In this document: piece after piece, positions 1,117-23,887 of the stretch | Layout: every line of letters starts with the position of its first letter | Numbering within the stretch: the stretch's first letter is position 1 | DNA from: Parachitinimonas caeni | GTDB lineage: Bacteria; Pseudomonadota; Gammaproteobacteria; Burkholderiales; Chitinimonadaceae | Assembly: GCF_030129945.1 (NCBI RefSeq) | Contig: NZ_JARRAF010000016.1 | Location: 1-64,000, forward strand | Reading direction: 5' to 3' | Length of the DNA stretch: 64,000 bases | Position numbers and translations under genes: made by a program | The notes under the pieces: generated by a model | The model's input: the letters and a program-made list of their open reading frames with translations, nothing else | The model's database searches: none | What the model was told of the DNA's origin: nothing

Positions 1117-2796
1117 ATGCTGCGCGAAACCATCAATCTCATGCGCGACCTGCCGCGCATCCGCGAAATTATCGGAACGCTTGCTAGACACGGCTTCGGC
1201 GATTTGGTTCGTCGTATGCGACTCGAACGGACGTTCGAGCGTGCTGGCGAGATGTTGCATATTCCCCGCGACGAAAACAGTTCCCCGCTTGAACCGGCTG
1301 AACGGGCCCGCCGTGTGCTGGAAGAGCTGGGGCCGACCTTCATCAAACTCGGCCAGGTGCTGGCAACGCGGGTCGATGTCTTTCCGCCTGAGTGGATCAG
1401 CGAGTTTGAAAAGTTGCAGAGCGAAGTACCGCCGCTGCCTTTCGAACAACTGATTCCCGAGCTGGAAGCCGTGTGGGGCAGGGCGCCCGATACCATTTTC
1501 CGAGAGCTGGATCCGCATCCGATCGGGTCGGCGTCTATTGCGCAGGTGCATCGGGCACGTCTGGTTGATGGCACGCCCGTAATCCTGAAAATCCGCCGCC
1601 CGAATATCGTGGGCAAGATTGATGCGGATTTGCGCATCCTGCGCCATCTGGCCGGGGTGATCGAATTTGAGTTTCCCGAGTCGCGTCGTTACCAGCCGGT
1701 TCGTATCGTCGAGCAGTTTTCCCGTTCACTCAAACGGGAGCTGAATCTTGCGGCCGAGGCACACAATCACAGCCGCTTTGCCAAAAATTTCGCGAACTCC
1801 CCGTTCATTGTCATTCCCGAAGTGTATTGGGATTGGACCAACGAGATCGTCAATGTCCAGAGCTATGTTGCCGGTGTGCCCGGAAACGATCTGGTGGCAG
1901 TTGGCAAGGCGGGGCTGGACAGGCATCTGCTGGCGAAGCGCGGCGCCGATGCCGTCTTGAAGATGATTCTGATCGACGGATATTTTCATGCCGATCCACA
2001 CCCCGGTAATGTGATTTATCTGCCGGAAAACCGGATTGCCTTTATTGATTTCGGCATGGTTGGACGGCTGCCGCATCCGCGTCGTGACGAAATTGTCGAT
2101 CTGCTGGCGGCACTGGCCGGGCGTGACGAGCAGGGCATTCTGGCGGTATTGATCGAGTGGACCGGCGATGCCATGGTGGACGAGGGCAAGCTGGGCTCGG
2201 ATATTGCCGAGCTGATCTTCAACTACGAAAACCTGCCACTCAAAGATATCCGCTTTGGCAATCTACTGAACGACGTGATTGCCATCATGCGCGAGCATTC
2301 GATTACCTTGCCGGCTGATCTGACCCTGTTGTTCAAAGCGTTGATTACCCTCGAAGGTCTGGGCCGGCAGCTGGACCCCAATTTTCAGATGGTGCCCCAC
2401 CTGACGCCGTTTGTCCGTCAGGTCATCATCCATCGCTACATGCCGGCAACACTGGCGCGCAAGGGGCAGCGCAGCCTGATCGAGATCGCCAATATCGCAG
2501 GCGGGCTACCGCGTGATGTAGCACGGCTGCTGAAGGCAGCACGGCGGGGCAAATTGCCGATTGATCTGGATCTGAAACGGCTTGACCATTTTGGCCAGCA
2601 ACTCGACAAGAGCACCAACCGGCTCACCTTGGGGATTGTGACCGGTTGCCTGATCATCGGATCATCCATCGTCATGACTGTGCCGGCCGGCCCAAGACTG
2701 TTCGGGCTACCGGCATTTGGCCTATCCGGCTTCCTGATTGCCTTTTTCAACAGTATCTGGCTGATCTATTCGATCTGGCGTTCCGGCAAGGATTGA
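1117..2796 (+). CDS. ubiB: UbiB/ABC1-family atypical kinase, ubiquinone biosynthesis
   Basis: Inner-membrane atypical protein kinase/ATPase needed for ubiquinone synthesis. The 559-residue protein has the family KLGQ motif (about residues 77-80), an alanine/serine nucleotide loop (GSASIAQVH), an invariant lysine in VILKIRRP, the catalytic segment HADPHPGN and the metal-binding DFG in AFIDFGMVG. The last 50 residues form two hydrophobic helices that would anchor it in the membrane, as in other UbiB proteins. A TTG 27 bases upstream is in frame, but the ATG at 1117 gives the usual family N-terminus LRETINLMRDLPRI. The usual ubiE and ubiJ neighbours are absent; the next gene begins 3 bases after the stop. 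Confidence 0.92.
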   Translation: MLRETINLMRDLPRIREIIGTLARHGFGDLVRRMRLERTFERAGEMLHIPRDENSSPLEPAERARRVLEELGPTFIKLGQVLATRVDVFPPEWISEFEKLQSEVPPLPFEQLIPELEAVWGRAPDTIFRELDPHPIGSASIAQVHRARLVDGTPVILKIRRPNIVGKIDADLRILRHLAGVIEFEFPESRRYQPVRIVEQFSRSLKRELNLAAEAHNHSRFAKNFANSPFIVIPEVYWDWTNEIVNVQSYVAGVPGNDLVAVGKAGLDRHLLAKRGADAVLKMILIDGYFHADPHPGNVIYLPENRIAFIDFGMVGRLPHPRRDEIVDLLAALAGRDEQGILAVLIEWTGDAMVDEGKLGSDIAELIFNYENLPLKDIRFGNLLNDVIAIMREHSITLPADLTLLFKALITLEGLGRQLDPNFQMVPHLTPFVRQVIIHRYMPATLARKGQRSLIEIANIAGGLPRDVARLLKAARRGKLPIDLDLKRLDHFGQQLDKSTNRLTLGIVTGCLIIGSSIVMTVPAGPRLFGLPAFGLSGFLIAFFNSIWLIYSIWRSGKD

Positions 2797-2799
2797 TTC

Positions 2800-3679
2800 A
2801 TGACCCCCCCCTCCTTCTGTCAACACGACTTCCCGTTCCATCCTGATAACCGGGTGTTCGACCGGAATCGGTGAGTATGTGGCCCAGGCTCTGGCGCAAG
2901 AAGGCTGGCAGGTATTCGCCAGCGCAAGGCAGATGGCTGATGTGGAACGTCTGCGTGCGCAGGGCTTGAACGCGTTATGGCTGGATGTGGACTCGACCGA
3001 GTCGATCACCCAGGCCGTCGAGCAGGTACTGACTGCGACCCAGGGACGGCTGTATGCCTTGTTCAACAATGCGGGATTCGGTCAGCCGGGGGCTGTCGAA
3101 GATCTGCCGCGTGTTGCCTTGCGTGAGCAGTTCGAAACCAATCTGTTCGGTGCCATCGAGCTGACGAACCAGCTTTTGCCCGCCATGCGCCGTAATGGCA
3201 CAGGGCGGCTGTTGTTCAATAGCTCGGTACTGGGTTTTGCCGCCATGCCCTATCGTGGCGCCTATAACGCCAGCAAGTTTGCCATGGAGGGTATGGTCGA
3301 TACGCTACGGCTGGAATTGCGCGGTACCGGGATCTGGCCGGTGCTGATCGAGCCGGGGCCGATCACCTCTCGTTTCCGGGCGAATGCCGAAGCGCGTTTT
3401 CATCGACATATCAACGCTGAAGCCAGCGCCCATTACGATGTTTATGCCGCCATGCAGGCCCGGCTGGCCAAACCAGGCCCTGCCAGCCCCTTCACACTCG
3501 GGCCGGAAGCTGTGCAAGCCGTGGTGCGTAGAGCGCTGCTGGCTCACAAGCCGGCAGCGCGGTATCGGGTGACGACGCCGACACATCTGTTTGCTTGGGC
3601 AAAGCGCCTGCTGCCGACTGCACTGCTGGATTGGCTGTTGATTGCCGGAGCCGGCGAAGAGGCCCGCAAGCTGCGCTAG
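2800..3679 (+). CDS. Short-chain dehydrogenase/reductase with frameshift at an 8-C tract
   Basis: NAD(P)-dependent short-chain dehydrogenase; substrate not predictable. The body is intact: ITGCSTGIG cofactor motif, FNNAGFG, catalytic Ser in FNSSVLGF and YNASK. No start codon exists in that frame upstream of the Rossmann motif. A good start does exist at 2800, with AAGGA eight bases before it and 3 bases after the ubiB stop, but it is in another frame and hits a stop within about 25 codons. The two frames meet at a run of eight C (2804-2811). With seven C the protein would begin MTPPPSVNTTSRSILITGC and be in frame throughout. This is either a sequencing error, a slipped-strand phase variant, or a recent inactivation. 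A GTG at 2879 would give a protein lacking the cofactor motif. Confidence 0.75.
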
Positions 3680-3751
3680 GCTACTACTGGGCGGCCTGCT
3701 CCCTGCAGGTTGGCACCCGACCCGACCAAGCTAGCGACTGCAAACCTAGCC

Positions 3752-3835
3752 CACTAAACGGCGCGCTTTTTGCCTTGCATCAGGCCCAAATCCGACGAAA
3801 CGCGATCCGGAAATGAAATGTCAACAGAGCCTAGG
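3752..3835 (+). repeat. 84-bp dispersed repeat, copy B; supplies mscS stop codon
   Basis: Direct repeat of 44-127 with three mismatches. The terminal CCTAGG contains the stop codon (TAG on the minus strand) of the leftward MscS gene. Copies A and B bracket the NlpC/P60, ubiB and SDR genes as direct repeats. Confidence 0.88.
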
Positions 3836-4688
3836 TTTTGGCCGGATCTGGGCAGGTGAACGCCTTGATTGGTGACCGCATCAGAAATTCGCGCACGATT
3901 TTCTGCTCAACCTCATTGCGTTCATTCAGCTGGATCGGCAGCCGCAACTGCAGATGAATTTTGCCGGCTTCCGGAATCAGCACCGACACCCGTGGCTCGG
4001 GAGATGGGGTGTCGAACCAGCTGCGCTCTGTAAGGGCACGCAAATGCTGGCGCGCAGATTCCAGCCAGGGTTCGCAGATGGCGTTGGCGATTTCCAGCAA
4101 GATTGCCTCGGCACGTTGCCAGTCGGTATCTGCACAGAGCGGGATGGTGATGTTATGAACCGTGAATTCGCCCATGAACGATTCTTTGAACACAGGCTGA
4201 GTCAGTAACAGACTATTGGGAAAGATGACAGCGCGCCCGGTCATCAGCGGCGCGCCCTTGCCGGCAGGGGAGTATTCGATCAGCGTGGTCGAGAACCAGT
4301 TGATGTCGATCACCGTGCCGCGATAGCCGCCCACCTCAATCCGGTCGCCAATGGCGTAAGCATTGCCGCCCCCCCGATAGACCGACCCCGAAAAGCAGAG
4401 GATCAGTTCCTTGGTGGCCAGCACAATCGCTGCTGCCACGGCCAGCAGCGATACCATTGCCGAGCGCAATTCCGGCCCCCAGATCAGCAAGATACCCGAC
4501 AGGAACAGCAATAACAGGCCATTGCGCAAATCGACACGCCAGCGACGCCGAGTCTCCAGATTCAGTGCCTCGTTGGTGGAGATTGCCCTGACCGCCCAGT
4601 GGCGAACGCCGACAATCAGGAGTACCAGGCAGACAGTGGCGATCAGATCCAGGGCTAGCGAACGGCTTATCAGGGCAAAGTTGATCAT
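3831..4688 (-). CDS. Small MscS-family mechanosensitive channel
   Basis: Predicted inner-membrane channel that opens under membrane tension. The 285-residue protein has three hydrophobic segments (about 10-30, 55-75, 78-100) and then the MscS beta domain, recognisable by AYAIGDRIEVGGYRGTVIDINWFSTTL and the following VIFPNSLLL. The C-terminal alpha/beta domain ends in TCPDPAKT. The ATG at 4688 lies 9 bases after the ppsR stop, so the two are probably co-transcribed. The stop TAG is formed by the terminal bases of a dispersed repeat, so the original C-terminus may have been trimmed or kept exactly if the target was already a TAG. Confidence 0.85.
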   Translation of the reverse strand: MINFALISRSLALDLIATVCLVLLIVGVRHWAVRAISTNEALNLETRRRWRVDLRNGLLLLFLSGILLIWGPELRSAMVSLLAVAAAIVLATKELILCFSGSVYRGGGNAYAIGDRIEVGGYRGTVIDINWFSTTLIEYSPAGKGAPLMTGRAVIFPNSLLLTQPVFKESFMGEFTVHNITIPLCADTDWQRAEAILLEIANAICEPWLESARQHLRALTERSWFDTPSPEPRVSVLIPEAGKIHLQLRLPIQLNERNEVEQKIVREFLMRSPIKAFTCPDPAKT

Positions 4689-8314: not shown

Positions 8315-11300
8315 TCAACGTCGGTCATGGTGGCGGTTACCACCTTGCCCTTCGATTTGGTGTTGATCCCGTGCAGGGGATGGCGGCGGCTCGCTTGGCT
8401 GACGCTCTTCCAGCGTAGAGGCAGGGGAAGGGGAGGGTGGTGTAGTCGGTTGCATTTCCAGATCGCGTGGGTTGGCCGGGGATGGAGGGCGCGATGGGGA
8501 CGGTGGCATGGTGTCTTCCGGCGCCCCAGATGCCGGTGCGCCCGCCACTTCCAGCGGAATGCCGGCTTCGTTGGGGCGACTGCTGCGACGGACACCGCTT
8601 TCGTCGGGGCCACGCCGTTGGTTGGGATCCCGTTTCTGGCTTGCCGGCCCCTGTTGGCCCTCGATCGGTGCATCGCTCCCTACCTGGCCGATGTGACGAT
8701 CTGATGATTCCCCTGTGGTGCGGGCAGGGTAGTGATCCGCCTGATCATGTACCGGATTGCTGTCTCCGGTTTCCAGTTCATTGTGACTGGCGCGAGGGCG
8801 TTGTTGCCCGGTCACCGTAGATGCCCCATCTTCGATATCGCTGCCGGCGCGGGCGGGTCGGTTGTCACTGGACGACGGATTGCTCGCTCCAGCAGAGGGA
8901 GTGTGGCTCCCTTCATATTGCCCCTCTATCCCCGCAGAACCCCCGCCACCCGCCGCAGATGGGGTGGGGGGACTGCCGCTGGCGGGTGCCATATCGGCTT
9001 GTGCATTGGCGCGTTGGTCGATAGTGCCTTGGCCGCCGACGCCTTCCAGATCTCCTTGCGGTGGCAAGCTATCCGATTCCGAGCGCCCCTTGGGGGGGCG
9101 ACCGGCGCCCGCGCCACTGGCAGCACCGCCCGCTGCGGCGCGCTGGCCACCCCCGGCGCGGTTGCTATTCATGGCGGACATCACGCCCTGAGCACGGTGG
9201 ACAACCCCTTGCGCACCAGATTGCATACGGCTGGAAGCCGCAGATTCGCCAAGATCCGGAATGCCGGCACCGATCCAGCGCAGGATGTGATCAGGCAGCG
9301 TTTGGGGCAGGGCGAACAGCATGTATAACACCGGCATCAGCAGCATGCCGTAAGCCAGTAGATAGAGCAGGATCGACAGAGGGCCGAACCAGCTGCCGGC
9401 GGTATTGGCTGCCATGATCTGAATGAAGACGCTGTTGATATACCCGACCACGGTATCAACCAGGACGATGGAGGTAAACAGGCCGAAGATCATCAACGAA
9501 GGGCGGCTGAACAAGGCGAAAATCATCAGATAACCTTGCTGCTGACCACCAATGAAGGAGCCCTGGCTGGGCGTCAGGTGCATCATCGCCCACAGCGGGG
9601 TGGCTGCCACCGCCTTGATTACCGCCACCAGCCAGCCAACCACACCGATGGTAAAGATGGCGTAGGGCAGCATGGGCAGGTAGATGGAAAAGTAGTATCC
9701 AACCAGCAGGCCCCATTCAGTCAGACGGTCGAGCATCGGGAAGGCTGCGCTGGATAACACCTGATATTGATTTCCTGCGGCTTGCGTACCCGGCATGCCG
9801 GCCTGTGTCATGGCATTGACGGTGGCGCCGCCTGCCTGGGTGGCGAGACTGAGCTTGGCCAGCATGGCGGCTTCGGAGTACTGCAGGACGACATCGCCCA
9901 CCAGCTTTAGCCGGTCCAGGACATTTTTTTCTCCAACCAGCGAGTGAATGAGCCAGCGCGTCATCGACTCCCCCATGGCGGACGAATACTGCTTGAGGGC
10001 GAATTCGACGTCTCCCGAGGCAATGACATCCCGCGCCAGAAAATCTGCGGCAGCGGGGATGACCTTCATGTCCAGGCCCAGTTTACCCTTATCCGACGAC
10101 AACTTGAGTTCAAGCTTGGCCTGGGGTGGCTTTTGCAGATATTCGTTGTTGGCTTGGCTGATGATGGCGTTAGTGATGGTTTCGTAGCTGGTTTCGACAA
10201 ATTGCCGGCTGGGATCAATCGGCAGCCGTTGGAAATTTGGGCGTGTTTGCGCCAGCTTCAGGCGGAATTCGCCCTGAATGGCGTTCTGGATGGCGGCCAG
10301 CTGCAGATTCCATCCGCCGGCGCGTGACCAGCCCTTGGCGGCCAGATCATCGGCCCAGCCATAGCCTTCGGGCATTCTGGACCGTGAACCTCCGCTGGAA
10401 GACGACGCAGACAGCTTTTTCGACCAATACTTTTGCAGCTCTGGAATGATGGGTGCCTTGACCTGCACCTGAAGTGGGCCGAGGTCCACCTCGGCCAACT
10501 GCCAGTCGCCCGACAGCGCTCGTTCGTAGCGCTGGGCAATGCAATTGAGTTCGGCCACGTCAACTCTGGTGGTGTTGCCCGGCTTGCTGGTTCCTCCAGA
10601 CGATGTTGTCGAAAGGCATTTCTCGGTACTGCCCCCACTGCCCCCTGGCCCGCTGGGGGCACTCTGGCCGACATAACCCGGCATGATGACCGGCAGATAC
10701 GCATCGAAGACATAGGCGCTATAGCTCTGTACGGAATCGAGCATAGTCTGGGTGGCATAAGATTGCTTGGCCCGGATCAGCTGACGAAACAGGAAGACCT
10801 GGCTATCCAGTTCGCTGCCTGGCAGATAAAAGCCGAGCGTATCTTCAAGCAGGGTTGAGACCGGATTGCTGGGGCCACTGGTGACCTTTCCTTTGTCCTT
10901 ATTGGGGGAGGAGAAAATCATCTTGCCGCAGATGGGCGTGCCCCCACTCAAAGAAGTGGGGATGCCTTGACTGATGCGGTCGTCGGCCCAACGGACGCTG
11001 GCCCAGTTGCCGAGCAGATCATTGGGATTGGTAATGTCGTTGTTGAGGCGCGCAACCGACGCGTTGTAACCGTAATTGATGGACCAACGGCAGATTTCTG
11101 ACCGAAACACCGCCATCACCGCATCGCGTGCGCCGATTGTTGGCAGATCCAGGCTGACAGGATCGTATTGATAGGTTTTGGCATAAGTATCCAACCCCGT
11201 CCGGTAGACATCGTTTGCCAAACCCACGCTCCAGATCACCACCTGCAATAGGCCGATCTGGATCAGCGAGAAGCCGGAGGCGGTCGGCAGCAGCATGGAG

Positions 11301-11581
11301 GCACCGAGCGCCATGCGCAGCGGGGTCCATACTGCTGACCAGCTGCGCCCCATGGCTTCGCCATCGTTGGCGGTGTTGGCCACCCCGATGATCAGCACAT
11401 AGGTGATGATCATCGAACCGACCAGTAGTAACCCGCTGTTGAATACGCCAAACATGGCCCCCAGTACGGTGACGGTGCCATCGCCGGCATTGCCGGCATT
11501 TTCGAGCAGCCTGTCGATAACCGTGCCGAAGATATCCCGCAACATTTGCAGGGAAGGATCATCTTTATCGGGGTTAAACAT
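8315..11581 (-). CDS. Orphan DotA/TraY-family membrane protein
   Basis: A 1088-residue protein resembling DotA of the Dot/Icm type IVB secretion system and TraY of IncI plasmids. In that family it is a large polytopic inner-membrane component of the transfer apparatus. Visible are an N-terminal hydrophobic segment with VANTANDGEAMGRSWSAVWTPLRMALG (about 68-95) characteristic of the family, a long periplasmic-type region (about 150-610), a cluster of four hydrophobic segments (about 625-770) and a tail of some 300 residues rich in Gly, Ser, Pro and acidic residues that is probably disordered. No other dot/icm, tra or pil gene is present within the window, so its partners are elsewhere or it works alone. 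It converges with ppsA; upstream lies the amylase gene on the same strand. Confidence 0.75.
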   Translation of the reverse strand: MFNPDKDDPSLQMLRDIFGTVIDRLLENAGNAGDGTVTVLGAMFGVFNSGLLLVGSMIITYVLIIGVANTANDGEAMGRSWSAVWTPLRMALGASMLLPTASGFSLIQIGLLQVVIWSVGLANDVYRTGLDTYAKTYQYDPVSLDLPTIGARDAVMAVFRSEICRWSINYGYNASVARLNNDITNPNDLLGNWASVRWADDRISQGIPTSLSGGTPICGKMIFSSPNKDKGKVTSGPSNPVSTLLEDTLGFYLPGSELDSQVFLFRQLIRAKQSYATQTMLDSVQSYSAYVFDAYLPVIMPGYVGQSAPSGPGGSGGSTEKCLSTTSSGGTSKPGNTTRVDVAELNCIAQRYERALSGDWQLAEVDLGPLQVQVKAPIIPELQKYWSKKLSASSSSGGSRSRMPEGYGWADDLAAKGWSRAGGWNLQLAAIQNAIQGEFRLKLAQTRPNFQRLPIDPSRQFVETSYETITNAIISQANNEYLQKPPQAKLELKLSSDKGKLGLDMKVIPAAADFLARDVIASGDVEFALKQYSSAMGESMTRWLIHSLVGEKNVLDRLKLVGDVVLQYSEAAMLAKLSLATQAGGATVNAMTQAGMPGTQAAGNQYQVLSSAAFPMLDRLTEWGLLVGYYFSIYLPMLPYAIFTIGVVGWLVAVIKAVAATPLWAMMHLTPSQGSFIGGQQQGYLMIFALFSRPSLMIFGLFTSIVLVDTVVGYINSVFIQIMAANTAGSWFGPLSILLYLLAYGMLLMPVLYMLFALPQTLPDHILRWIGAGIPDLGESAASSRMQSGAQGVVHRAQGVMSAMNSNRAGGGQRAAAGGAASGAGAGRPPKGRSESDSLPPQGDLEGVGGQGTIDQRANAQADMAPASGSPPTPSAAGGGGSAGIEGQYEGSHTPSAGASNPSSSDNRPARAGSDIEDGASTVTGQQRPRASHNELETGDSNPVHDQADHYPARTTGESSDRHIGQVGSDAPIEGQQGPASQKRDPNQRRGPDESGVRRSSRPNEAGIPLEVAGAPASGAPEDTMPPSPSRPPSPANPRDLEMQPTTPPSPSPASTLEERQPSEPPPSPARDQHQIEGQGGNRHHDRR

Positions 11582-13666: not shown

Positions 13667-14599
13667 TCAGGCTGCTGAGCTTTGAGCGATGTCCTGAGTT
13701 CCTTCATATAGCGCACGGGCGATTGGGCAGTGAAACTCCAGATCGCGCATGGCGTATCCGCGTTGCAACAGCCAGTACCACTGGCCATCTGGCGCAGGGG
13801 CAAGACCAGTGTCGGCGTAGCCCGCGCGATGCAGGGCTGCCAGCAGCGGCGGGAGCGCGGCGTCGAAGCGGATACGCAGATGAATCAGGCGATTGCGGGG
13901 CAGGCGGGTGATTTCTTCAACGCTTTCCGCGCTGGCATGCTCCAGCGTGACATCCACCCGCTTGCCGTGTGCCGAGATCAGCATCGGGCGATCCAGCTGG
14001 CGATCACCGCTTGAAAGCGGGCTGCTGCCAAAGCGCTCAACCAGAGGCTTGATCCAGCTCGCGGTCTCGCGACCCGTATGGCATTGCGGAATCGGCCGAT
14101 CCTGCAGGGGCATCACGCCAATCACGACACTTTCGCGACCATCGTTACCAAACGGTGATGCGACGTAGTCCAGCAGCAGACCCGTGGTCTGAAAGCCAAG
14201 TGTGCGCGCAAGCCGCTGCGTTTGCGAATGGCTCGATACCATCTTGATGGTCAAGGTGGCCAGCCCTTGCTGCCGTGCATACAGGCACAAATGCTCACCA
14301 AGGCGGGTGGCAATGCCCATGCCGCGTGTCGAGGGATGGGCCACGATCATGGCAAGCTCGGCGCTATCCGGGCCGGCAGGGTCTTGCCACAGAATGGCGT
14401 GACCGACGATGCGGCCTTCCAGCGTCGCGACAGCGGTGCGCCAGAGCTGTTCAATATTGTGATGACGGATCATCGAGGGCAGATAAACGTCCGGATAGAC
14501 GTAGTGCTCACCATAAACGGCCGAGAACAATGCGCTGACGCCTTCGGCATCGCCTTCCTGAAAGTCGCGGATTACGACAGGTGCTGCTGCGGGCTTCAT
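13667..14599 (-). CDS. GNAT N-acetyltransferase with C-terminal extension
   Basis: Last gene of the lux-like operon. The N-terminal half (about residues 8-165) is a GNAT domain: IRDFQEGDAEGVSALFSAVYG, then the acetyl-CoA loop in VAHPSTRGMGIATRLGEHL and LARTLGFQTTG. The remaining 140 residues match no family I recognise and may be a second, degenerate acyltransferase-like domain. The ATG overlaps the stop of the preceding PaaK-like gene (ATGA), so translation is probably coupled and the product acts with it. The longer open frame starting at 14698 lies inside the upstream gene and is rejected. Substrate is unknown; N- or O-acylation of the cluster's product is a reasonable guess. Confidence 0.8.
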   Translation of the reverse strand: MKPAAAPVVIRDFQEGDAEGVSALFSAVYGEHYVYPDVYLPSMIRHHNIEQLWRTAVATLEGRIVGHAILWQDPAGPDSAELAMIVAHPSTRGMGIATRLGEHLCLYARQQGLATLTIKMVSSHSQTQRLARTLGFQTTGLLLDYVASPFGNDGRESVVIGVMPLQDRPIPQCHTGRETASWIKPLVERFGSSPLSSGDRQLDRPMLISAHGKRVDVTLEHASAESVEEITRLPRNRLIHLRIRFDAALPPLLAALHRAGYADTGLAPAPDGQWYWLLQRGYAMRDLEFHCPIARALYEGTQDIAQSSAA

Positions 14600-15957
14600 G
14601 CGGCACCTCCGGGTTGTGCGCGGTAATCGCGGCGGTCGATAACGCGCTGCAGCTTGCCAGTGCGGGCTTGTAGAACCAAGGCCGCCTGACTGCACCATTC
14701 CACCGCCAGAACGGTCTGACCATCAGCCATTTGCTGGGCGAGGCCAGGATCTTTCGCCTCCAGGGTGTCGATCAGCTGCTGGGCCTGTGCTGCAGTACCT
14801 TCATGGGCAATGCGCAGGCATACCTGATCCTTGCCATCGCGGTGATCAATGACCAGTTGCCAGTGGCACTTGCCAACAAGCTGCTGAATCAGCTCTGACA
14901 GCTCATCGGGGAACAGCGAGGCGGCACCGACACGCAGGCGGTGGCCAAGGCTGCTACGCCCCAGCAACACAAATTTGCGCTCAGAACTGCCTTCCGGTTC
15001 GACCCAGGCGGCCAGATCGCCTACCGGGTAGCGGATCAGGGGCATCAGGGCGCGGGTCAGGTTGGTGATGACCAGCATGCCGCTGCGGCCGGTTTCGCGA
15101 ATGACTTCGCCGCTGGCTTCGTCAATGATCTCAACGATGGTTTCGGGCTCGAAGCACCGATGTTCGCCGAGCTGGCAGTCGGGCGTGGCAGCACCGATCA
15201 GGCCGGCATCAACGCTGGCGCAGCCAATCGAGGCAATGCGGGCGTTGGGGAGTACGCGATGCAGCAAATCCAGCTGTTCGGCAAACAGGCTTTCTCCGCC
15301 ATAGAGCAAGGCCGTGACGCAGGGCAGCTGGATGTCCTGGCTGGCCAGGTCGGCCGCATAGCGCAGCAGCTGGGCGGGCACACCAACCAATACGTTGATG
15401 TGATGGCTGAGAATCTGCTCGGTCAATGTTTTGGGGTCTGCTGCCCCGGTGAACGGGTACTCACACACCGGTGTATCCATGTGGGCGAGCGAGCCATGAA
15501 TGAACAGGAAGCTCGCGTAAAGGTCGCCTGCAAAAAACAGATTGGCGATGCGATCTCCTGTATTGAGCTGACGGGACATGCCGCGACCAAACGTGCGCAC
15601 GAAAGTCCGCCATTCCTCGCGGGTGTAGACCGACATTTTTCCGCTGCCGGTCGTACCGCCAGTCTTGAAGACATGGGCGTCGGCGATAGGGCCGGTCAAG
15701 GCCGGCCAGTCGTGCAGGCCACCATTGTTTGCCCAGTACTGGACGGGATCGACCAGAGGCAGGTCGTTGATCTGCCAGCCTGTTGTCGGCACATCGCGAT
15801 AAAGTTGCGCGTAGTAAGGCGAGTGATGGCGCGCAAAAGCCACCAGGTGTTCTAGCTTCAACATGATTTTCTGTGACTCCCCACCGCTGGCAGGATCCCG
15901 GTCGGATCGTGTGCGGCGTGAATAGTCTTCTTTGGTTTTCAAATAATCGGTTTTCAT
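14596..15957 (-). CDS. PaaK-like adenylate-forming ligase
   Basis: Adenylate-forming enzyme of the phenylacetate-CoA ligase superfamily, 453 residues. The AMP-binding signature is FKTGGTTGSGKMSVYTREEW; later motifs are LLYGGESLF, IASIGCASVDAGLIG and the hinge region RSGMLVITNLTRALMPLIRYPVGD. It should activate a carboxylic acid as acyl-AMP; whether the acceptor is CoA, a protein or an amine cannot be told. The start at 15957 has GGAAGAAG upstream. It follows the LuxC-PaaK fusion by 118 bases that contain a stem-loop, and overlaps the GNAT by four bases. It is clearly different in sequence from the PaaK domain fused to LuxC. Confidence 0.82.
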   Translation of the reverse strand: MKTDYLKTKEDYSRRTRSDRDPASGGESQKIMLKLEHLVAFARHHSPYYAQLYRDVPTTGWQINDLPLVDPVQYWANNGGLHDWPALTGPIADAHVFKTGGTTGSGKMSVYTREEWRTFVRTFGRGMSRQLNTGDRIANLFFAGDLYASFLFIHGSLAHMDTPVCEYPFTGAADPKTLTEQILSHHINVLVGVPAQLLRYAADLASQDIQLPCVTALLYGGESLFAEQLDLLHRVLPNARIASIGCASVDAGLIGAATPDCQLGEHRCFEPETIVEIIDEASGEVIRETGRSGMLVITNLTRALMPLIRYPVGDLAAWVEPEGSSERKFVLLGRSSLGHRLRVGAASLFPDELSELIQQLVGKCHWQLVIDHRDGKDQVCLRIAHEGTAAQAQQLIDTLEAKDPGLAQQMADGQTVLAVEWCSQAALVLQARTGKLQRVIDRRDYRAQPGGAA

Positions 15958-16022
15958 TGGGCTTCTTCCCACTCTTCTGCCTAGGGGGTAACCGGGGCAG
16001 CGGTGGCGAAGTCGGGTTGCCT

Positions 16023-16054
16023 GGTCAGCCACAATGGGTAACTGTGGGCTGACC
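16023..16054 (-). other. Intercistronic stem-loop in the lux-like operon
   Basis: GGTCAGCC and GGCTGACC arms extended by ACA/TGT with one bulge, in the gap between the LuxC-PaaK and PaaK-like genes. No T-run follows on the minus strand, so it is more likely an mRNA stability or processing element than a terminator. Confidence 0.5.
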
Positions 16055-16075
16055 GTAGTTCACTCAATTTACTTT

Positions 16076-18487
16076 TCAGCGACGGCGGTCCATCACCAGC
16101 GGGGTCTTGCCGCTATGGGTGTGCCGCTCGAATTCGGCTACCGGGCGGCTGGAGACTTCCAGCTCCAGTAACTCGGTATCGAGGCCGAGTTTCAACTCCG
16201 GATCGGTGCTGACTCGGGCGCGTACCGCTTCGGCATCGCCATCAGCCAGCAGGCGGATGCATTCGCGGCCGGCTGAACCATATTCGAGGATCAGCTGGAT
16301 CGGGACTTCGGCCAGGGCGGCCAGCTTCTGCGGCTGAACAAACATGGTGCCGATACGGATCAGCGCGCCATGACGGCCCTGCAGCTCGAAGCGTGGGCTT
16401 TGGGCGCCGCAGGCGCATTCGCCATCAACCCAGCGCCCCAGATCGCCGATTTCGTAGCGGACGACTTTCTGGCCTTCACGGGCCCGGGAGGTAAACAGCA
16501 GGCGGCCGGACTCTCCTGGCGCCACGGGCTGGTCGGTCTCGGTATCGACGATTTCCAGCCACTGGGTATCTGTCAGCAGATGGAAGACGCCATCCGGGCT
16601 GGCATGGCAGGCATGGCCAAGTGGGCCGGCATCGACCGAGCCATAAATCGCCGAGCGGATGGTGGTGACGCCAAAGCTGGCAATGAACTCGCGCTGGCTG
16701 GCACCGAGGTGCTCGCCACCAAGCATCAGTTTTTTGATGCCGCCATAGGCACGCAATGTCTTTTCTTCGCGTACGAACAGCTGATAAATCGTGCTGGGCA
16801 TGCCGATCAGGGTGTTGACCTTCTGGCTGACGATCACGCTGGCGATTTCGCTGTAATCATCATCATTCGGACCACCCATCGGGTAGTGGGTAACTCCCAG
16901 CTTGTCGAGCAGGGTGAAGAAGCTGAGCAGGCCACCGTACAGATTGCCCGCGTACAACAGGTTCAGCACACGGTCGCTGGCGGGTTCGATACCGGCCGCG
17001 AACAGGCCATCGGCAGCGGCCTGCATCTGACGGTGGTAGTCGCCATAGCTGAAGCCTGCGAGCTTGGGCACGCCGCTGCTGCCGCCACTGCGGAAGAACA
17101 GCTGGGCACCATCGCGCATCGAATCATTCAGGAAGGCGGCTTTGTCCATGACGGGCTGACCGACGATGCTGGCAGGTGCCACGGGGGGCAGATCCAGCGT
17201 GGCTTGCCGTGGCAGCATGTCGGCGGCCAGCGTAACCGAGACGCGACGTGCCAGGCGGCTCAGGGCATACACGCCATCGTGTGGCTCGCCGCTGTAACCC
17301 TCGTGCATGGCCTGCATGGGGGCCAGACGGCCTACGCCCGCAGCAATCAGGGCATGGCTGAGGCCCGCCATGTCGGCAGCATTGGCCACCAGGCCGCAGC
17401 TCTGCAGGCGGGTGCGCCACGGGCGCAGGGTGTCTACCAGACGGGCTCGGGGCAGAGGCCGCAACAGCACGCTGCGGAACAGTGGCGATGGCTCGATGGC
17501 GGCTTCGTGCTTCCAGATGATGCGCCAGCCTTCGCCAGTCCAGATCCGGCTTGGCACTGCACCAAACACCTGGTCCAGACGCGTAAAGGCCAGACGGCTG
17601 GTGATGTCGGCGGCTTCCTGTTCGCTGGGTGTCAGCGCGGGCCACTGACTGGTGCGGCGGGCCATGGCTTCGGCCAGTTGTTCACCAATTGCCTGCAGGG
17701 TGGCTTGATCATCGCTATCTACAAAGACGACTTGTGGGCTGGAACAGGCTTGCTGGTCGAAACGGCAGACTTCATCGGCTACGGCGTCCAGTGCGGCGCT
17801 GTCGATGGCATTCGGAACCAGATAGGCAAAGCTGATCTTGTGTCCCCAGTCGATCCAGCGGCAGCCAGCGGGCAATTGCTTGCGAATGGCTTCCAGGGCG
17901 CTATCGCCACCCCAGGCCGAGACGCCATCGGCGTGAACCATCAGCTGTGGCAATTCGCTGGTCTTGGCGGGGGTGACGGCAATGAAGTCGGCCAGTTGAC
18001 CACTGGTGTCGCAGCTGAGGAAAGCCTGCAGCAGGCGTGCATTGATGCCGGCATCGCTGGAGCTGGGGCGTAGCCAGTTGACGTTGCCCAGCAGCAGACT
18101 TTCCAGAATGGCAAAGAAGGGTAGCAGGGGGGCATTGGCCGGCGTGACATGCACCACCAGGCCCAGCGGGCGCCATGCCTCGAAATGGGAGGCGCGGTAA
18201 TCAATGCGGCGCAACGAGAAAGGCTGCTCACCCAGTTCGCGCTTGAGTTTGGTTTTCAGGCTGGCGGGGGTGCAGAAGGCGGCAATTTCGTTACGTGCGG
18301 CGGCATCGACTTCGCTGCCGAGATCGAATTCACCGGCAGTCAGTCTGGCGGCAAAGCGTTCGGCAGTCGCCAGAACGGTTTCGATGTCGCAAGGTTGACC
18401 CAGTGCAATGGGAAGCCGTGCAGTCAGGCTGTTCAGGGCCTGATCAAGGCTGAGGGTTGGGCTGAGTTGGCCGTTGATGAGGTACAT
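16076..18487 (-). CDS. LuxC acyl-CoA reductase fused to a PaaK-like adenylation domain
   Basis: An 803-residue two-domain protein. Residues 1 to about 420 resemble LuxC, the reductase that takes acyl groups through a cysteine thioester to the aldehyde with NADPH; the expected active cysteine is in FDQQACSSPQ (about Cys248), with GLVVHVTPANAP and LRPSSSDAG also LuxC-like. Residues about 440-803 form a PaaK-like adenylate-forming domain with FFRSGGSSGVPKLAGF, MLGGEHLG, RSAIYGSVDAGPLG and a CACG cysteine pair. LuxC proteins are normally about 480 residues without this part. The fusion would couple acid activation and reduction in one chain. It starts 3 bases after the LuxE-like stop. Substrate unknown; no luxAB is present. 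Confidence 0.85.
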   Translation of the reverse strand: MYLINGQLSPTLSLDQALNSLTARLPIALGQPCDIETVLATAERFAARLTAGEFDLGSEVDAAARNEIAAFCTPASLKTKLKRELGEQPFSLRRIDYRASHFEAWRPLGLVVHVTPANAPLLPFFAILESLLLGNVNWLRPSSSDAGINARLLQAFLSCDTSGQLADFIAVTPAKTSELPQLMVHADGVSAWGGDSALEAIRKQLPAGCRWIDWGHKISFAYLVPNAIDSAALDAVADEVCRFDQQACSSPQVVFVDSDDQATLQAIGEQLAEAMARRTSQWPALTPSEQEAADITSRLAFTRLDQVFGAVPSRIWTGEGWRIIWKHEAAIEPSPLFRSVLLRPLPRARLVDTLRPWRTRLQSCGLVANAADMAGLSHALIAAGVGRLAPMQAMHEGYSGEPHDGVYALSRLARRVSVTLAADMLPRQATLDLPPVAPASIVGQPVMDKAAFLNDSMRDGAQLFFRSGGSSGVPKLAGFSYGDYHRQMQAAADGLFAAGIEPASDRVLNLLYAGNLYGGLLSFFTLLDKLGVTHYPMGGPNDDDYSEIASVIVSQKVNTLIGMPSTIYQLFVREEKTLRAYGGIKKLMLGGEHLGASQREFIASFGVTTIRSAIYGSVDAGPLGHACHASPDGVFHLLTDTQWLEIVDTETDQPVAPGESGRLLFTSRAREGQKVVRYEIGDLGRWVDGECACGAQSPRFELQGRHGALIRIGTMFVQPQKLAALAEVPIQLILEYGSAGRECIRLLADGDAEAVRARVSTDPELKLGLDTELLELEVSSRPVAEFERHTHSGKTPLVMDRRR

Positions 18488-18490
18488 GGA

Positions 18491-19621
18491 TCAGGACTCC
18501 CGAATCAGTTCAGAGGCGGCAAGGGCGCAGCTGCGGGCCTTGCTGGTGCTGGCACGTCCCAGCAGTTCAAACCAGTCTGTGGCAATACCGCAGCCACATT
18601 CATCGGCGCGGTGCAAGACGGCGAGGTCACTCATGACCACGCTATGGGCCGGGCTGGAGGTGATGTAAGGCGACACAAATTGGATGAAACCGCGCTGGCC
18701 GTAGTCCTGCACGGCAAACGTTGCGGTATCGCGGACATAGGCACGGGCATAAACCGGTACGTGAAAGCGGTGATTCGAGCACTCGACGTAAGGCACGCAA
18801 TGCTCAACCGAGCCGTAACCATCGCGGCAGCGAATGTCGGGAATACCCAACTGTTCGCCAAGACGGGCATAGAGCTTGGCCTTGGGGATTTCCTGGTCGG
18901 CGTGGGTCTTCCAGCCTCCGCCAAAGAACACCAGTGAGTCGGGATGCAGCTTCAAGGGCGGCAGCCCCATCTCGCGCATGCGCTCCAGCACAAACCACAT
19001 GAAGGCAGGGAAGCCCAGAATGCGCACGGGGGCGCCATCTTCAGCAAACTCCTGCAGGGCGCGGATTACACCAAACGGATCAAACTCATTGCCCTTGCCG
19101 GTGTGGCGCAGGGCATAGACGGCGCGCTTGACCGGCGCGTACTTGCACAGGAACTGGTCGGTATAGGCCGTACCCAGTGTGATGGTGCCGGCGGGCTCGT
19201 AGCTCAACAGCAGATAGTTGCAAGGGGTGTCGGGTGTTTCCCAGCCATAGTGGCGGAAGATATGGTCAACCATGCCTTGGGCTGCACCGATGCTGCGGTC
19301 GTCATAGCGCATGCGGCTTTTCTGGCCGGTGGTGCCGGAGGAGGTCAGCTCCAGTGCTTCCTTGCCCGATTCGCTCAGCAGCAGGCGCTGTTTGAAGTAG
19401 TTGGCAAAAATGGGTGGCAATTGCGACCAGTCCGGATTGGCGCCGAGGGTGTTGATATCAAAGCCATTCGCCGCAAGCCATTCGGCATAGTGGGGGCTGT
19501 GCTCATTGTGGTAGGCCACGATCTCACGCATGGCGGTATCAAACAGCCGATCGGTGTCGGCACTGGCTTGGTAAGGGTGGTCGAGCGCGCAGAGGGCGTC
19601 GACGTGGGCGAGGTTCGCCAC
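18491..19621 (-). CDS. LuxE-like acyl-protein synthetase
   Basis: Activates a carboxylic acid as acyl-AMP and in LuxE moves it to its own cysteine before handing it to LuxC. The 376-residue length equals that of LuxE. Seen are the adenylation motif LTSSGTTGQKSRMRYDD, VFFGGGWKTH, RDGYGSVEHCVPYVEC, and a cysteine at residue 365 in RSCALAASEL; the acyl-carrying cysteine reported for Vibrio LuxE is Cys364. The start is GTG at 19621, chosen because AGGAGA lies eight bases upstream and it matches LuxE length. Immediately followed by the LuxC fusion, as luxE works with luxC in light-emitting bacteria. Confidence 0.85.
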   Translation of the reverse strand: MANLAHVDALCALDHPYQASADTDRLFDTAMREIVAYHNEHSPHYAEWLAANGFDINTLGANPDWSQLPPIFANYFKQRLLLSESGKEALELTSSGTTGQKSRMRYDDRSIGAAQGMVDHIFRHYGWETPDTPCNYLLLSYEPAGTITLGTAYTDQFLCKYAPVKRAVYALRHTGKGNEFDPFGVIRALQEFAEDGAPVRILGFPAFMWFVLERMREMGLPPLKLHPDSLVFFGGGWKTHADQEIPKAKLYARLGEQLGIPDIRCRDGYGSVEHCVPYVECSNHRFHVPVYARAYVRDTATFAVQDYGQRGFIQFVSPYITSSPAHSVVMSDLAVLHRADECGCGIATDWFELLGRASTSKARSCALAASELIRES

Positions 19622-19700
19622 GGCAATTCTCCTGGTTTGTATGAATTCGGTCTGGTGCAGTCGGGAACCAAATGGGGTTGGCTCCCGACGGCGTTGGGGG

Positions 19701-20954
19701 CTAGCTGGCTTGGTTGGCCAACGCCGGCTCAGGCGGCTTGACCAACACACGAGTGATCGGTAAGGCGGCGGCAAACGCAGGGATGCTTGCCGCGATGATG
19801 TAGGCGGTCAGACTGTTTCCGGCGCCCAGGCTGGCCAGCAGCGAACTGCCGAGGCCGAAAATGGCAACCGAGATCATGCCGAGCATGGCCGATACGGAAC
19901 CTTTGCCGCTTTCACTGGAGAACAGCGTGATGCGATAGAGGGTGGCATTGCAGATGCCCAGGCCGAAGGCGTAGAGCGACAAGCCGCTGATCAATGCAAT
20001 GACATGGCCGGTGGCCAGTGTGGCAGCCAATGCCAGCGCGAGGCCGCCTAATACCGGGATCAGAGCCAGACGCACCAGCTGTTCGATCTCAAATTTCTCG
20101 ATCAGGAAGTTGAGCGCAAAGTTGCCGGCGATCAGCGCGCCAAAGATGGGCAACTGCCACAGCGCGTATTCCGTCGTACTCATGCCAAGGTTGTGCATCA
20201 GTAACAGGGGGGACAAGGCAATCCAGGCCAGCAGCGGCAAGCCGGTCAGGCCCAAGGCGATGCTGCCGGACATGAAGCGGCCATTGCGCAGCAGGTCGAG
20301 ATAAGCACTGGCAATGCTGCCGATATGCAGGGGCTGTGGCTCCAGACGGCTACCATCCTTACGCGTGACTCCAATGGTTTCCGGCATCAGGCAGTACAGC
20401 CCCAGCCAGACCAGCACGCCGAGCAAGGCAATGGCCAGAAACAGGGTACGCCAGGACATGACGGACAGCAGGGCACTTCCTACCAGCGGCCCAAGCAGCG
20501 GCGAAAGCAGGGCGATATTGGAGAACATGGCCATCAGCTTTACCGCGTCTGATTCGGCAAAGCCCTCCTGCAGGGCGGGGTAGCTCACCACGACGACAAA
20601 ACCCAAGCCAATGCCCTGGATGAAGCGCAAGGCGGTGAACAGGCGAATGTCGGTCACCCAGGGGGTGGCCAGGCAAGCCAGCGCAAAGCCTACGCAACCG
20701 ATCAGCAACAGGGGGCGACGACCAAAGCGGTCAGACAGCGGGCCGATCAGCCATTGGAAGGCCACGCCACCTAATAAATAAGCATTGAGCGAGAGTGGAA
20801 CGTAACGGGTGTCTGCGCGCAGATCGTTGACGACGCTCAGCATGCCAGGCATGACGACATCGCTGCCAACATAGGTCAATAATTCGAACAGAGATAACAG
20901 CAGGCAAAACAGCAGTGCGCGCAAAGGCGAAATGGGTAGTAGCGAATTGGGCAT
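19701..20954 (-). CDS. MdfA-like MFS exporter
   Basis: Twelve-helix major facilitator, 417 residues, close in pattern to the multidrug exporter MdfA. The membrane-embedded acidic residue of helix 1 is kept (SLFELLTYVGSDVVMPGML, Glu24), as are GPLSDRFGRRP after helix 2, RFIQGIGLGFV and the PLLGPLVGSALL motif C-like stretch. It would export a drug-like or lipophilic compound across the inner membrane by proton exchange. First gene of the leftward lux-like operon, 79 bases before the LuxE-like gene, so it may export the product. The start at 20954 gives the usual short N-terminus; the ribosome site is weak. Confidence 0.87.
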   Translation of the reverse strand: MPNSLLPISPLRALLFCLLLSLFELLTYVGSDVVMPGMLSVVNDLRADTRYVPLSLNAYLLGGVAFQWLIGPLSDRFGRRPLLLIGCVGFALACLATPWVTDIRLFTALRFIQGIGLGFVVVVSYPALQEGFAESDAVKLMAMFSNIALLSPLLGPLVGSALLSVMSWRTLFLAIALLGVLVWLGLYCLMPETIGVTRKDGSRLEPQPLHIGSIASAYLDLLRNGRFMSGSIALGLTGLPLLAWIALSPLLLMHNLGMSTTEYALWQLPIFGALIAGNFALNFLIEKFEIEQLVRLALIPVLGGLALALAATLATGHVIALISGLSLYAFGLGICNATLYRITLFSSESGKGSVSAMLGMISVAIFGLGSSLLASLGAGNSLTAYIIAASIPAFAAALPITRVLVKPPEPALANQAS

Positions 20955-21377
20955 CAATTGTTCAGTTCGGTGGTCTGATAAATGTGGCCAACTGGGTAAG
21001 TTGGGCTTAATTGTGCTGTGCATCATAACTGAATTTGCGATTTTTTTGAAGAGAAATTTGTGTTTATATTCTTTGTGTTACATCATTTTGATGATAAATG
21101 ACCATTGGATTGCACAGCACTATTGAGCCAATATTTCAGAATTGTTTTGTCAATTGGATGTTTTCCCTAGCACGTAAAATTGAGGGGTAAATACCGACAA
21201 AAAAGGTGAACTATCTAAGTTGATGTCGCATTATCGATATATCCAAATGGACTATTTTGATAAGAGAGCGTTCTTAAGCGGCCTTGCCGGTGGGGTGTCT
21301 TGATGCTGTCAAGTCATGGCGGGGCGTCAAGAGCCTAGCTATAACAGAGTGAGAATGACGAACCTGGATGTGGCGTG
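20955..21377. promoter_or_regulatory. AT-rich divergent control region of the lux-like cluster
   Basis: These 423 bases separate the leftward exporter operon from the rightward binding-protein gene. About 21030-21250 is strongly AT-rich. CATCATTTTGATG at 21081-21093 is an inverted repeat and could be an operator. GCGTCAAGAGCCTAG at 21324-21338 is a decayed end of the dispersed repeat family. No gene is seen here. Confidence 0.45.
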
Positions 21378-22103
21378 ATGGGAAAAGGCTGGCTGGCTGG
21401 CTTGATAATGGTGATGGCGGGTACCGCGCAAGCCGAGTTGTTGCGGGTGGGTTTTGGTACCAACAAGCCGCCTTATATCTTTGAAGCGGAGAAGCGCGGT
21501 CTGGAAGTGGACATCATTGAGCAGGCGGCACTACGGGCCGGGTACGAGATCGAGCCCTTTTTCGCACCGCTGGAGCGCCTGCACCAGATGCTGGGCAGGG
21601 GGCAGCTGGATGCGATTGCCACTACGAATCAGATGAGTGGTATCCAGGCGCATTATTCAGCCCCCTACATCCAGTACCAGAACTTTGCTGTGGCACTGGC
21701 CTCGCGGCGGCTGGAGATACGCACTATCGCCGATCTTGGCAAATACTCGGTCAGCGCATTTCAGCGCGCACGATTTCTGCTCGGATCGGAGTTTCAGGCA
21801 ATGGCGAGCAGCAATCCCAACTATCGGGAGGAAGCTCAGCAGATTGTTCGCAATCGGCTGTTGTACGCCGGCCGCATCGACGTGATTGTTGGCGACCGTC
21901 GCATAATCGAATATTTCAATCGGGAAGTGGGTAATCTGGTCGATGTCAAACAACCGCTTACCTGGTTTGCCATCTTTCCGCCTACGCAATATCAATTGGG
22001 TTGCAAGCTGGCGACGCAATGTGAGCGCTTCAGCGATGGCTTGCAGGCTTTGCGCAGCAGTGGGGCGTACGAGCAGATCGAGAAGCGTTATGCCGCTTTC
22101 TGA
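21378..22103 (+). CDS. Periplasmic solute-binding protein (SBP_bac_3 type)
   Basis: A 241-residue secreted protein with a signal peptide ending in AQA (about residue 20) and the family-3 extracellular solute-binding fold: LRVGFGTNKPPYIFEAEKRGLEVDIIEQAAL, then GQLDAIATTNQ. Such proteins bind polar amino acids for ABC importers, but no permease or ATPase gene is nearby, and the arginine and aspartate that grip the amino-acid backbone are not clearly kept. It may be a sensor-like or orphan binding protein. ATG at 21378 is preferred over GTG three bases earlier. Confidence 0.75.
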   Translation: MGKGWLAGLIMVMAGTAQAELLRVGFGTNKPPYIFEAEKRGLEVDIIEQAALRAGYEIEPFFAPLERLHQMLGRGQLDAIATTNQMSGIQAHYSAPYIQYQNFAVALASRRLEIRTIADLGKYSVSAFQRARFLLGSEFQAMASSNPNYREEAQQIVRNRLLYAGRIDVIVGDRRIIEYFNREVGNLVDVKQPLTWFAIFPPTQYQLGCKLATQCERFSDGLQALRSSGAYEQIEKRYAAF

Positions 22104-23486: not shown

Positions 23487-23807
23487 TTAACGGTTGTAGC
23501 CAATGGCAGGATCTTTGGCGTTGAGCGCCTTGATGAATTCCTTTTCCTTTTTGTTCAGGTCTTTAACCATCACGTTTTCGGCTGAGTAGAGAATTTCCTT
23601 ACTCACGGTGTAGGGTATTTGACCGTTAAGGTACTCACCCATATCGGCGAGCATGTCTCGTTTTCCTGCTTTCGGTGAACCAAAGTACTTAAAGAAGTCC
23701 ATGTTGGCCGTAGCGGCGGTATCTCGACCCACATAAATTTTGCCGTTGGGAAAAGTGACCTTATACACACATCCCCAAGGGATGATGTTGGTGCCTTTCT
23801 GTGTCAT
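23487..23807 (-). CDS. Small GIY-YIG nuclease-like protein inserted in the prp operon
   Basis: A 106-residue protein with the GIY-YIG nuclease pattern: GCVYKVTFPNGKIYVGRDT at residues 12-30 corresponds to the GIY and YIG motifs, and EKEFIKALNAKDPAIGYN near the C-terminus resembles the end of the I-TevI catalytic domain, placing Glu88 where I-TevI has its metal-binding Glu75. The conserved arginine between them is not obvious. It lacks a DNA-binding domain. It lies between acnD and prpF on their strand and is lower in GC than both, which suggests it arrived by transfer. Whether it is active is unknown. Confidence 0.7.
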   Translation of the reverse strand: MTQKGTNIIPWGCVYKVTFPNGKIYVGRDTAATANMDFFKYFGSPKAGKRDMLADMGEYLNGQIPYTVSKEILYSAENVMVKDLNKKEKEFIKALNAKDPAIGYNR

Positions 23808-23887
23808 GGGCTCAACTCTCAAGTTGTCGAAATAGTGCTATCGCTGCTGCCTCTGCCGCCGATCGCTGGCGGCAGAGGCAAGGCTGG

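Follow-up and report, generated by a model that had tools for sequence, protein, structure and literature searches.

The closest described systems pair an acyl-activating protein with a reductase. Luminous bacteria have the LuxC/LuxE fatty acid reductase, for which a solved complex is available (7xc6). For EhpF/EhpG of Pantoea, an adenylating enzyme and a reductase are proposed to take a phenazine acid to the aldehyde, and EhpF lacks a C-terminal domain. The parts of GriC/GriD from Streptomyces griseus are presumably homologous to LuxC and to LuxE/PaaK. GriC/GriD is described (PMC10179220) as a two-protein aryl carboxylic acid reductase of the grixazone pathway, which forms an acyl-AMP and then an aldehyde. 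Here a larger set of genes is described from a 64,000 nucleotide stretch of Parachitinimonas caeni DNA (contig NZ_JARRAF010000016.1, positions 1 to 64,000), referred to as the window. The set comprises five minus-strand genes at 13667-20954, encoding a major facilitator superfamily (MFS) exporter, a LuxE-like protein, a fusion of LuxC to a PaaK-type adenylation domain, a free PaaK-like enzyme and a GNAT acetyltransferase. On balance, and with modest confidence, we favour its interpretation as a self-contained, horizontally mobile operon with a LuxE/LuxC-type carboxylic-acid reductase at its heart, which would make a small molecule for export.

Gene content and catalytic residues

The sequence-only reading of the window had assigned five leftward genes to these families; all five were found, and the Pfam and NCBIfam matches agree with the names. 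The starts of the MFS, LuxE, free PaaK and GNAT genes were set by comparison with homologues, which gives the following layout in window coordinates:

19701..20954, minus strand: MdfA/CraA-type MFS exporter, 417 aa (the longest open reading frame (ORF) reaches 21026)
18491..19621, minus strand: LuxE-like acyl-protein synthetase, 376 aa, GTG start
16076..18487, minus strand: LuxC-PaaK fusion, 803 aa, with LuxC at residues 34-415 and the PaaK-type adenylation domain at about 430-803
14596..15957, minus strand: free PaaK-like adenylating enzyme, 453 aa, start at about 15957
13667..14599, minus strand: two-part GNAT, 310 aa, with an N-terminal acetyl-CoA-binding GNAT and a C-terminal GNAT-like half
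20955..21374, minus strand: probable operon promoter region, judged from sequence
21375-22103, plus strand: divergent gene for a periplasmic solute-binding protein, which is not a conserved neighbour of the unit in the locus comparison

The luxE stop lies 3 bases upstream of the fusion start, and an ATGA overlap joins the free PaaK and GNAT genes.

The LuxE-like protein matches the LuxE acyl-protein synthetase profile (PF04443, E 1.2e-24) and carries a P-loop-like SSGTTG at residue 94, GYGSVE at 268 and Cys365, the last of which aligns with a cysteine of the solved LuxC-LuxE complex (7xc6_E, E 6e-18). Across 32 aligned LuxE rows the terminal RSC(A), the SSGTxG loop and (F/Y)GxVEH are invariant or nearly so. 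The LuxC part is matched above cut-off by PF05893 (E 1.6e-114, residues 34-415), and its Cys248, within QQAC, aligns with the LuxC cysteine of the same complex (7xc6_A) and is kept in an alignment of 32 rows of fusion homologues. Both cysteine positions had been given in the sequence-only reading and are correct with the homologue-supported starts. Loss of the LuxC and adenylation active-site residues, which would have counted against that reading, was not seen in the alignments, where these residues are intact.

Since both parts are clearly related to the 7xc6 fatty acid reductase, the unit might make or modify a fatty aldehyde or fatty acyl compound for signalling or membranes, as luminous LuxC/LuxE do. 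We regard this as unlikely, as the scores against the long-chain luminescence models are far under the equivalog cut-offs (LuxC, NF052251, 74 against 750 bits; LuxE, NF052244, 71 against 550 bits), luxD and luxAB are absent from the unit, and the two extra PaaK-type domains and a small-amine GNAT suggest acids other than fatty ones. The absence of luciferase had been claimed for the operon and is confirmed there; no luxAB was found in the operon, in the adjacent scanned ORFs or in the annotated neighbourhoods of the other loci. A remnant of a bioluminescence operon was ruled out, as luxAB and luxD are absent and the luminescence-model scores are low.

The fused adenylation domain is matched by PF00501 (E 1.4e-9, residues 460-666), with 4r1l as its structural match, and has a P-loop at 467, YGSVD at 615, RYEIGD at 677 and an A10-type Lys at 793. 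The free PaaK-like enzyme falls just below the Pfam cut-off (PF00501, E 2e-6) and is matched by NCBIfam PaaK-type models (1e-13 to 1e-28) and by 2y4o (E 4e-14); its motifs are TGGTTG at 99, SVDAG at 248, RYPVGD at 309 and GK at 434. The 32 fusion rows retain the P-loop SGG(S/T)xG, YGS(V/T)D, RYxxGD and the C-terminal GK, as does the free enzyme. Neither domain reaches the cut-off of the PaaK phenylacetate-CoA ligase model (TIGR02155, 646 bits), with 54 bits for the fused and 50 bits for the free copy. Phylogenetic analysis placed fused and free PaaK in separate clades (support 100/99 each) that are sisters (98/92) against 16 other PaaK-like proteins. An ancient PaaK duplication inside the unit is therefore suggested, the evidence for which is good but not exhaustive, because the outgroup was drawn from matches to the fusion. 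Three adenylation domains are thus present, as had been proposed, but they are not three independent types, as the fused and free PaaK are sister clades.

The GNAT is matched by PF00583 (E 1.6e-11), with RGMGIA at residue 92; the acetyl-CoA motif of its N-terminal half is present in the window copy and slightly changed in some Pseudomonas copies. In a predicted structure of mean pLDDT 61 (pLDDT being AlphaFold's per-residue confidence score), this half appears to resemble small-amine acetyltransferases, with Foldseek matches to aminoglycoside, polyamine, phosphinothricin and RimI acetyltransferases. The exporter is matched by the MdfA-type model NF011931 (E 4e-112), below the family cut-off. 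None of the five proteins had a PADLOC match at E 0.01, and a role in anti-phage defence was rejected.

Conservation, transfer and selection of the unit

Neighbourhoods were compared at 35 fusion-bearing loci from Pseudomonas, from Enterobacteriaceae-like genomes, from relatives within the host's order and from plasmids of Salmonella and Streptomyces. Genes for LuxE and the free PaaK adjoin the fusion in every one (split by a frameshift in L069), and 34 have the GNAT, the exception (L051) being truncated where its contig ends; the GNAT of Salmonella plasmid CP053580 carries a frameshift. The set is therefore kept, and co-inherited, across 35 homologous loci, which excludes chance as an explanation of its association in the window. 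A homologous MFS gene is found in 23 loci (broken in L069) and is absent, decayed or swapped for an unrelated MFS in the other 12. No MFS gene adjoins the unit in seven loci (L064-L067, L084, L085 and L053, the contig of which starts only a short way upstream), two Salmonella plasmids retain only a 121-aa remnant, and three Streptomyces copies carry another MFS, the one compared having no detectable similarity to that of the window. Since some loci have a different exporter or none, the conserved core consists of the four enzymes. The Streptomyces gene order is PaaK-MFS-GNAT-LuxE-fusion, so the co-occurrence outlasts rearrangement.

A catabolic or detoxifying operon, transforming an incoming acid behind a drug-efflux pump, has in its favour that the MFS is closest to the MdfA/CraA multidrug pumps and that PaaK relatives are mostly catabolic. 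It appears rather unlikely, however, as downstream degradation genes are found in none of the loci, only the four enzymes are retained across phyla, and an ATP-costly reduction to an aldehyde would be unusual as a first catabolic step.

Locus L083 has an ordinary enterobacterial gene order except that serA and fau-zapA are separated by precisely the five genes, which shows that the unit consists of these five and no others. These boundaries bear on the idea that LuxC/LuxE homologues supply acyl groups to sugars in surface glycan or flagellin modification, which was considered since LuxC and LuxE terms appear in papers on flagellin glycosylation loci (PMC7874193, PMC4875605). This is very improbable, as L083 leaves no room for extra genes, the unit is also found in Streptomyces, and it is not accompanied by glycosyltransferase, nucleotide-sugar or flagellar genes. 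Flagellar or lipopolysaccharide modification was rejected on the absence of such accompanying genes.

Four Pseudomonas loci (L064-L067) encode a TonB-dependent receptor of ~1000 aa directly upstream of an MFS-less four-enzyme core, and in three of these, genes for a FecI-type sigma factor and FecR lie beside the receptor. Such an arrangement would suit a metallophore, a small chelator that leaves through the MFS and is taken up again by the receptor. The receptor is found at only four of the 35 loci, however, with none adjoining the window copy, and its gap to luxE is about 300 bp. No consistent Fur box was seen upstream of the tested copies, and none in the window promoter region, which speaks against a Fur-regulated siderophore; a metallophore in general seems unlikely.

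The related-locus search found the identical five-gene order in 10 Pseudomonas species. The distribution is patchy. By genome search, the unit was present in 41 of 199 sampled Pseudomonas, in 2/10 genomes of the host's own family, 2/5 of another family of its order, 5/149 of an Enterobacteriaceae-like family, and 2/398 of a phylum-wide sample in which the window's genome is counted. Plasmid records with the unit comprise two Salmonella IncF plasmids and three Streptomyces-type plasmids or megaplasmids; a DNA search of 5,426 E. coli genomes found no copy.

The window fusion groups with those of the Salmonella plasmid and the TonB-linked Pseudomonas (support 95/99), as does its free PaaK (98/99), and the LuxE tree agrees at lower support (84/88). 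The copy of a member of the host's own family, L050, is placed apart from the window copy in the fusion and free PaaK trees; by plain identity the nearest LuxE is that of L050 (78%). As the three trees agree with each other and contradict the species relationships, they indicate that the whole unit has moved horizontally. Pairwise ratios of nonsynonymous to synonymous substitution (dN/dS) of 0.07-0.31, lowest for LuxE and highest for GNAT, point to purifying selection on all five genes.

Several further observations were made at or near these loci. The Salmonella plasmid copies (L043/L044; CP054717, CP053580) are near-identical and lie beside an IS911-like element; with an MFS remnant of 121 aa and one frameshifted GNAT, the unit may be degrading there. 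In L084, from an Enterobacteriaceae-like genome, a 976-aa protein near the unit (1758-4688, minus strand) has a weak SpvA-family match (84 bits against a cut-off of 503). In the window, a DotA/TraY family protein (8315-11581, minus strand; TIGR04346, 341 bits) is encoded close to the operon and is possibly part of a type IVB secretion or conjugation system, and a 111-aa protein without a Pfam match (23487-23822, minus strand) has a start, YKVTFPNGKIYVGRD, resembling a GIY-YIG nuclease motif.

A proposed pathway

From what is known of these protein families, the unit could operate as follows. The LuxE-like enzyme would adenylate a carboxylic acid of primary metabolism and hold the acyl group in thioester linkage to Cys365. 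From there it would pass to Cys248 of LuxC and be reduced with NAD(P)H to the aldehyde, a step that is likely because the LuxC and LuxE cysteines are intact. A further acid, probably an aromatic or amino-aromatic one of the sort that PaaK relatives usually take, would be activated by the fused and free PaaK as an acyl-adenylate or CoA thioester, which could then be coupled or undergo a second reduction. The GNAT would acylate an amine of the intermediate or product, which would leave through the MFS pump, an exchangeable component. On paper, the four enzymes are enough to activate an acid, hand it to LuxC, reduce it and carry out an N-acylation. Neither a carrier protein nor a precursor-building gene travels with the unit at the loci compared, so proteobacteria and actinomycetes should both possess the substrate.

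Several points weigh against this pathway. With no precursor gene to point to it, the substrate class is no more than a guess. In both PaaK domains, Asp replaces the usual catalytic Glu of the ANL (Y/F)GxTE motif, because of which their activity could differ. The structure prediction that had been proposed for the 803-residue protein was made (AlphaFold, 11 sequences), but at pLDDT 55 the model is too poor to use, leaving domain coupling hypothetical. Several loci lack an adjacent exporter. The exporter is therefore not an invariant part of the unit. A self-contained pathway to an exported small molecule, as originally proposed, is well supported by a set that is kept across phyla, moves as a unit, is under purifying selection and has an exporter in most loci. 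The exported-metabolite pathway is the best-supported reading, and it has known chemical precedent.

More tentatively, the unit may represent a carrier-protein-free, four-enzyme class of pathway in proteobacteria and actinomycetes, leading to a new exported metabolite derived from an aldehyde (or to a metallophore), in which LuxC would be permanently fused to its own adenylation domain and a LuxE-type protein would act as second acyl donor. The core is carried by about one fifth of the sampled Pseudomonas as well as by Streptomyces and Salmonella plasmids, and contains no nonribosomal peptide synthetase or polyketide synthase gene for cluster-mining programs to key on. As its boundaries are known, the unit can be moved on one plasmid and its product read directly, and it could serve to test how widely LuxC/LuxE chemistry has been recruited to secondary metabolism beyond bioluminescence.

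Comparison with described systems

The open-access papers searched contained no description of this set or its product; two that came up, one on Chromobacterium and one on Pseudomonas P482, concern other genes. The sequence-only reading had likewise known of no product, and in this it stands, but the chemistry is not without precedent, since GriC/GriD reduces aryl acids and EhpF/EhpG is proposed to do so; that reading had named neither. Other pairs of this sort were seen on plasmids. In Streptomyces europaeiscabiei (NZ_CP109155; L087, 7538-10116) a separate LuxE/LuxC pair lies by YcaO, DUF692 and metallo-beta-lactamase-fold proteins and an MFS transporter, which together may be a cluster for a peptide natural product that includes conversion of an acid to an aldehyde. 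In Pantoea dispersa (NZ_CP082347; L086, 7445-10792) a luciferase-less pair of an AMP ligase and a LuxC-like reductase is followed by a short-chain dehydrogenase/reductase family oxidoreductase, and LuxC-like matches recur in 13 Pantoea plasmid records.

With the luminous LuxC/LuxE the window unit shares a synthetase and a reductase with aligned acyl-carrying cysteines; it differs in having no luxD or luxAB, in the fusion of LuxC to PaaK and in the added free PaaK, GNAT and exporter. Both PaaK domains share the adenylation fold and motifs of PaaK and PaaK-like ligases (4r1l, 2y4o, AjiA1, BagE/FevW), but are set apart by their low ligase-model scores (50-54 against 646 bits), by the Asp of the A5-like motif and, for one of them, by the fusion to LuxC. 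GriC/GriD is alike, by description, as a two-protein acid reductase in a natural-product pathway. Grixazone biosynthesis, however, has GriH/GriI for its 3,4-AHBA precursor and an oxidase, none of which is in the window unit; GriH/GriI-type aminohydroxybenzoate genes were also found neither inside the L083 unit nor annotated around the NBC_00158 copy. EhpF is a weak Protein Data Bank match to the fused PaaK domain (E 0.004), and EhpF/EhpG sits, unlike the window unit, in a phenazine cluster, that of D-alanylgriseoluteic acid. Compared with GriC/GriD and EhpF/EhpG, the window set thus adds the fusion, a second PaaK and a GNAT, and does so with no precursor genes.

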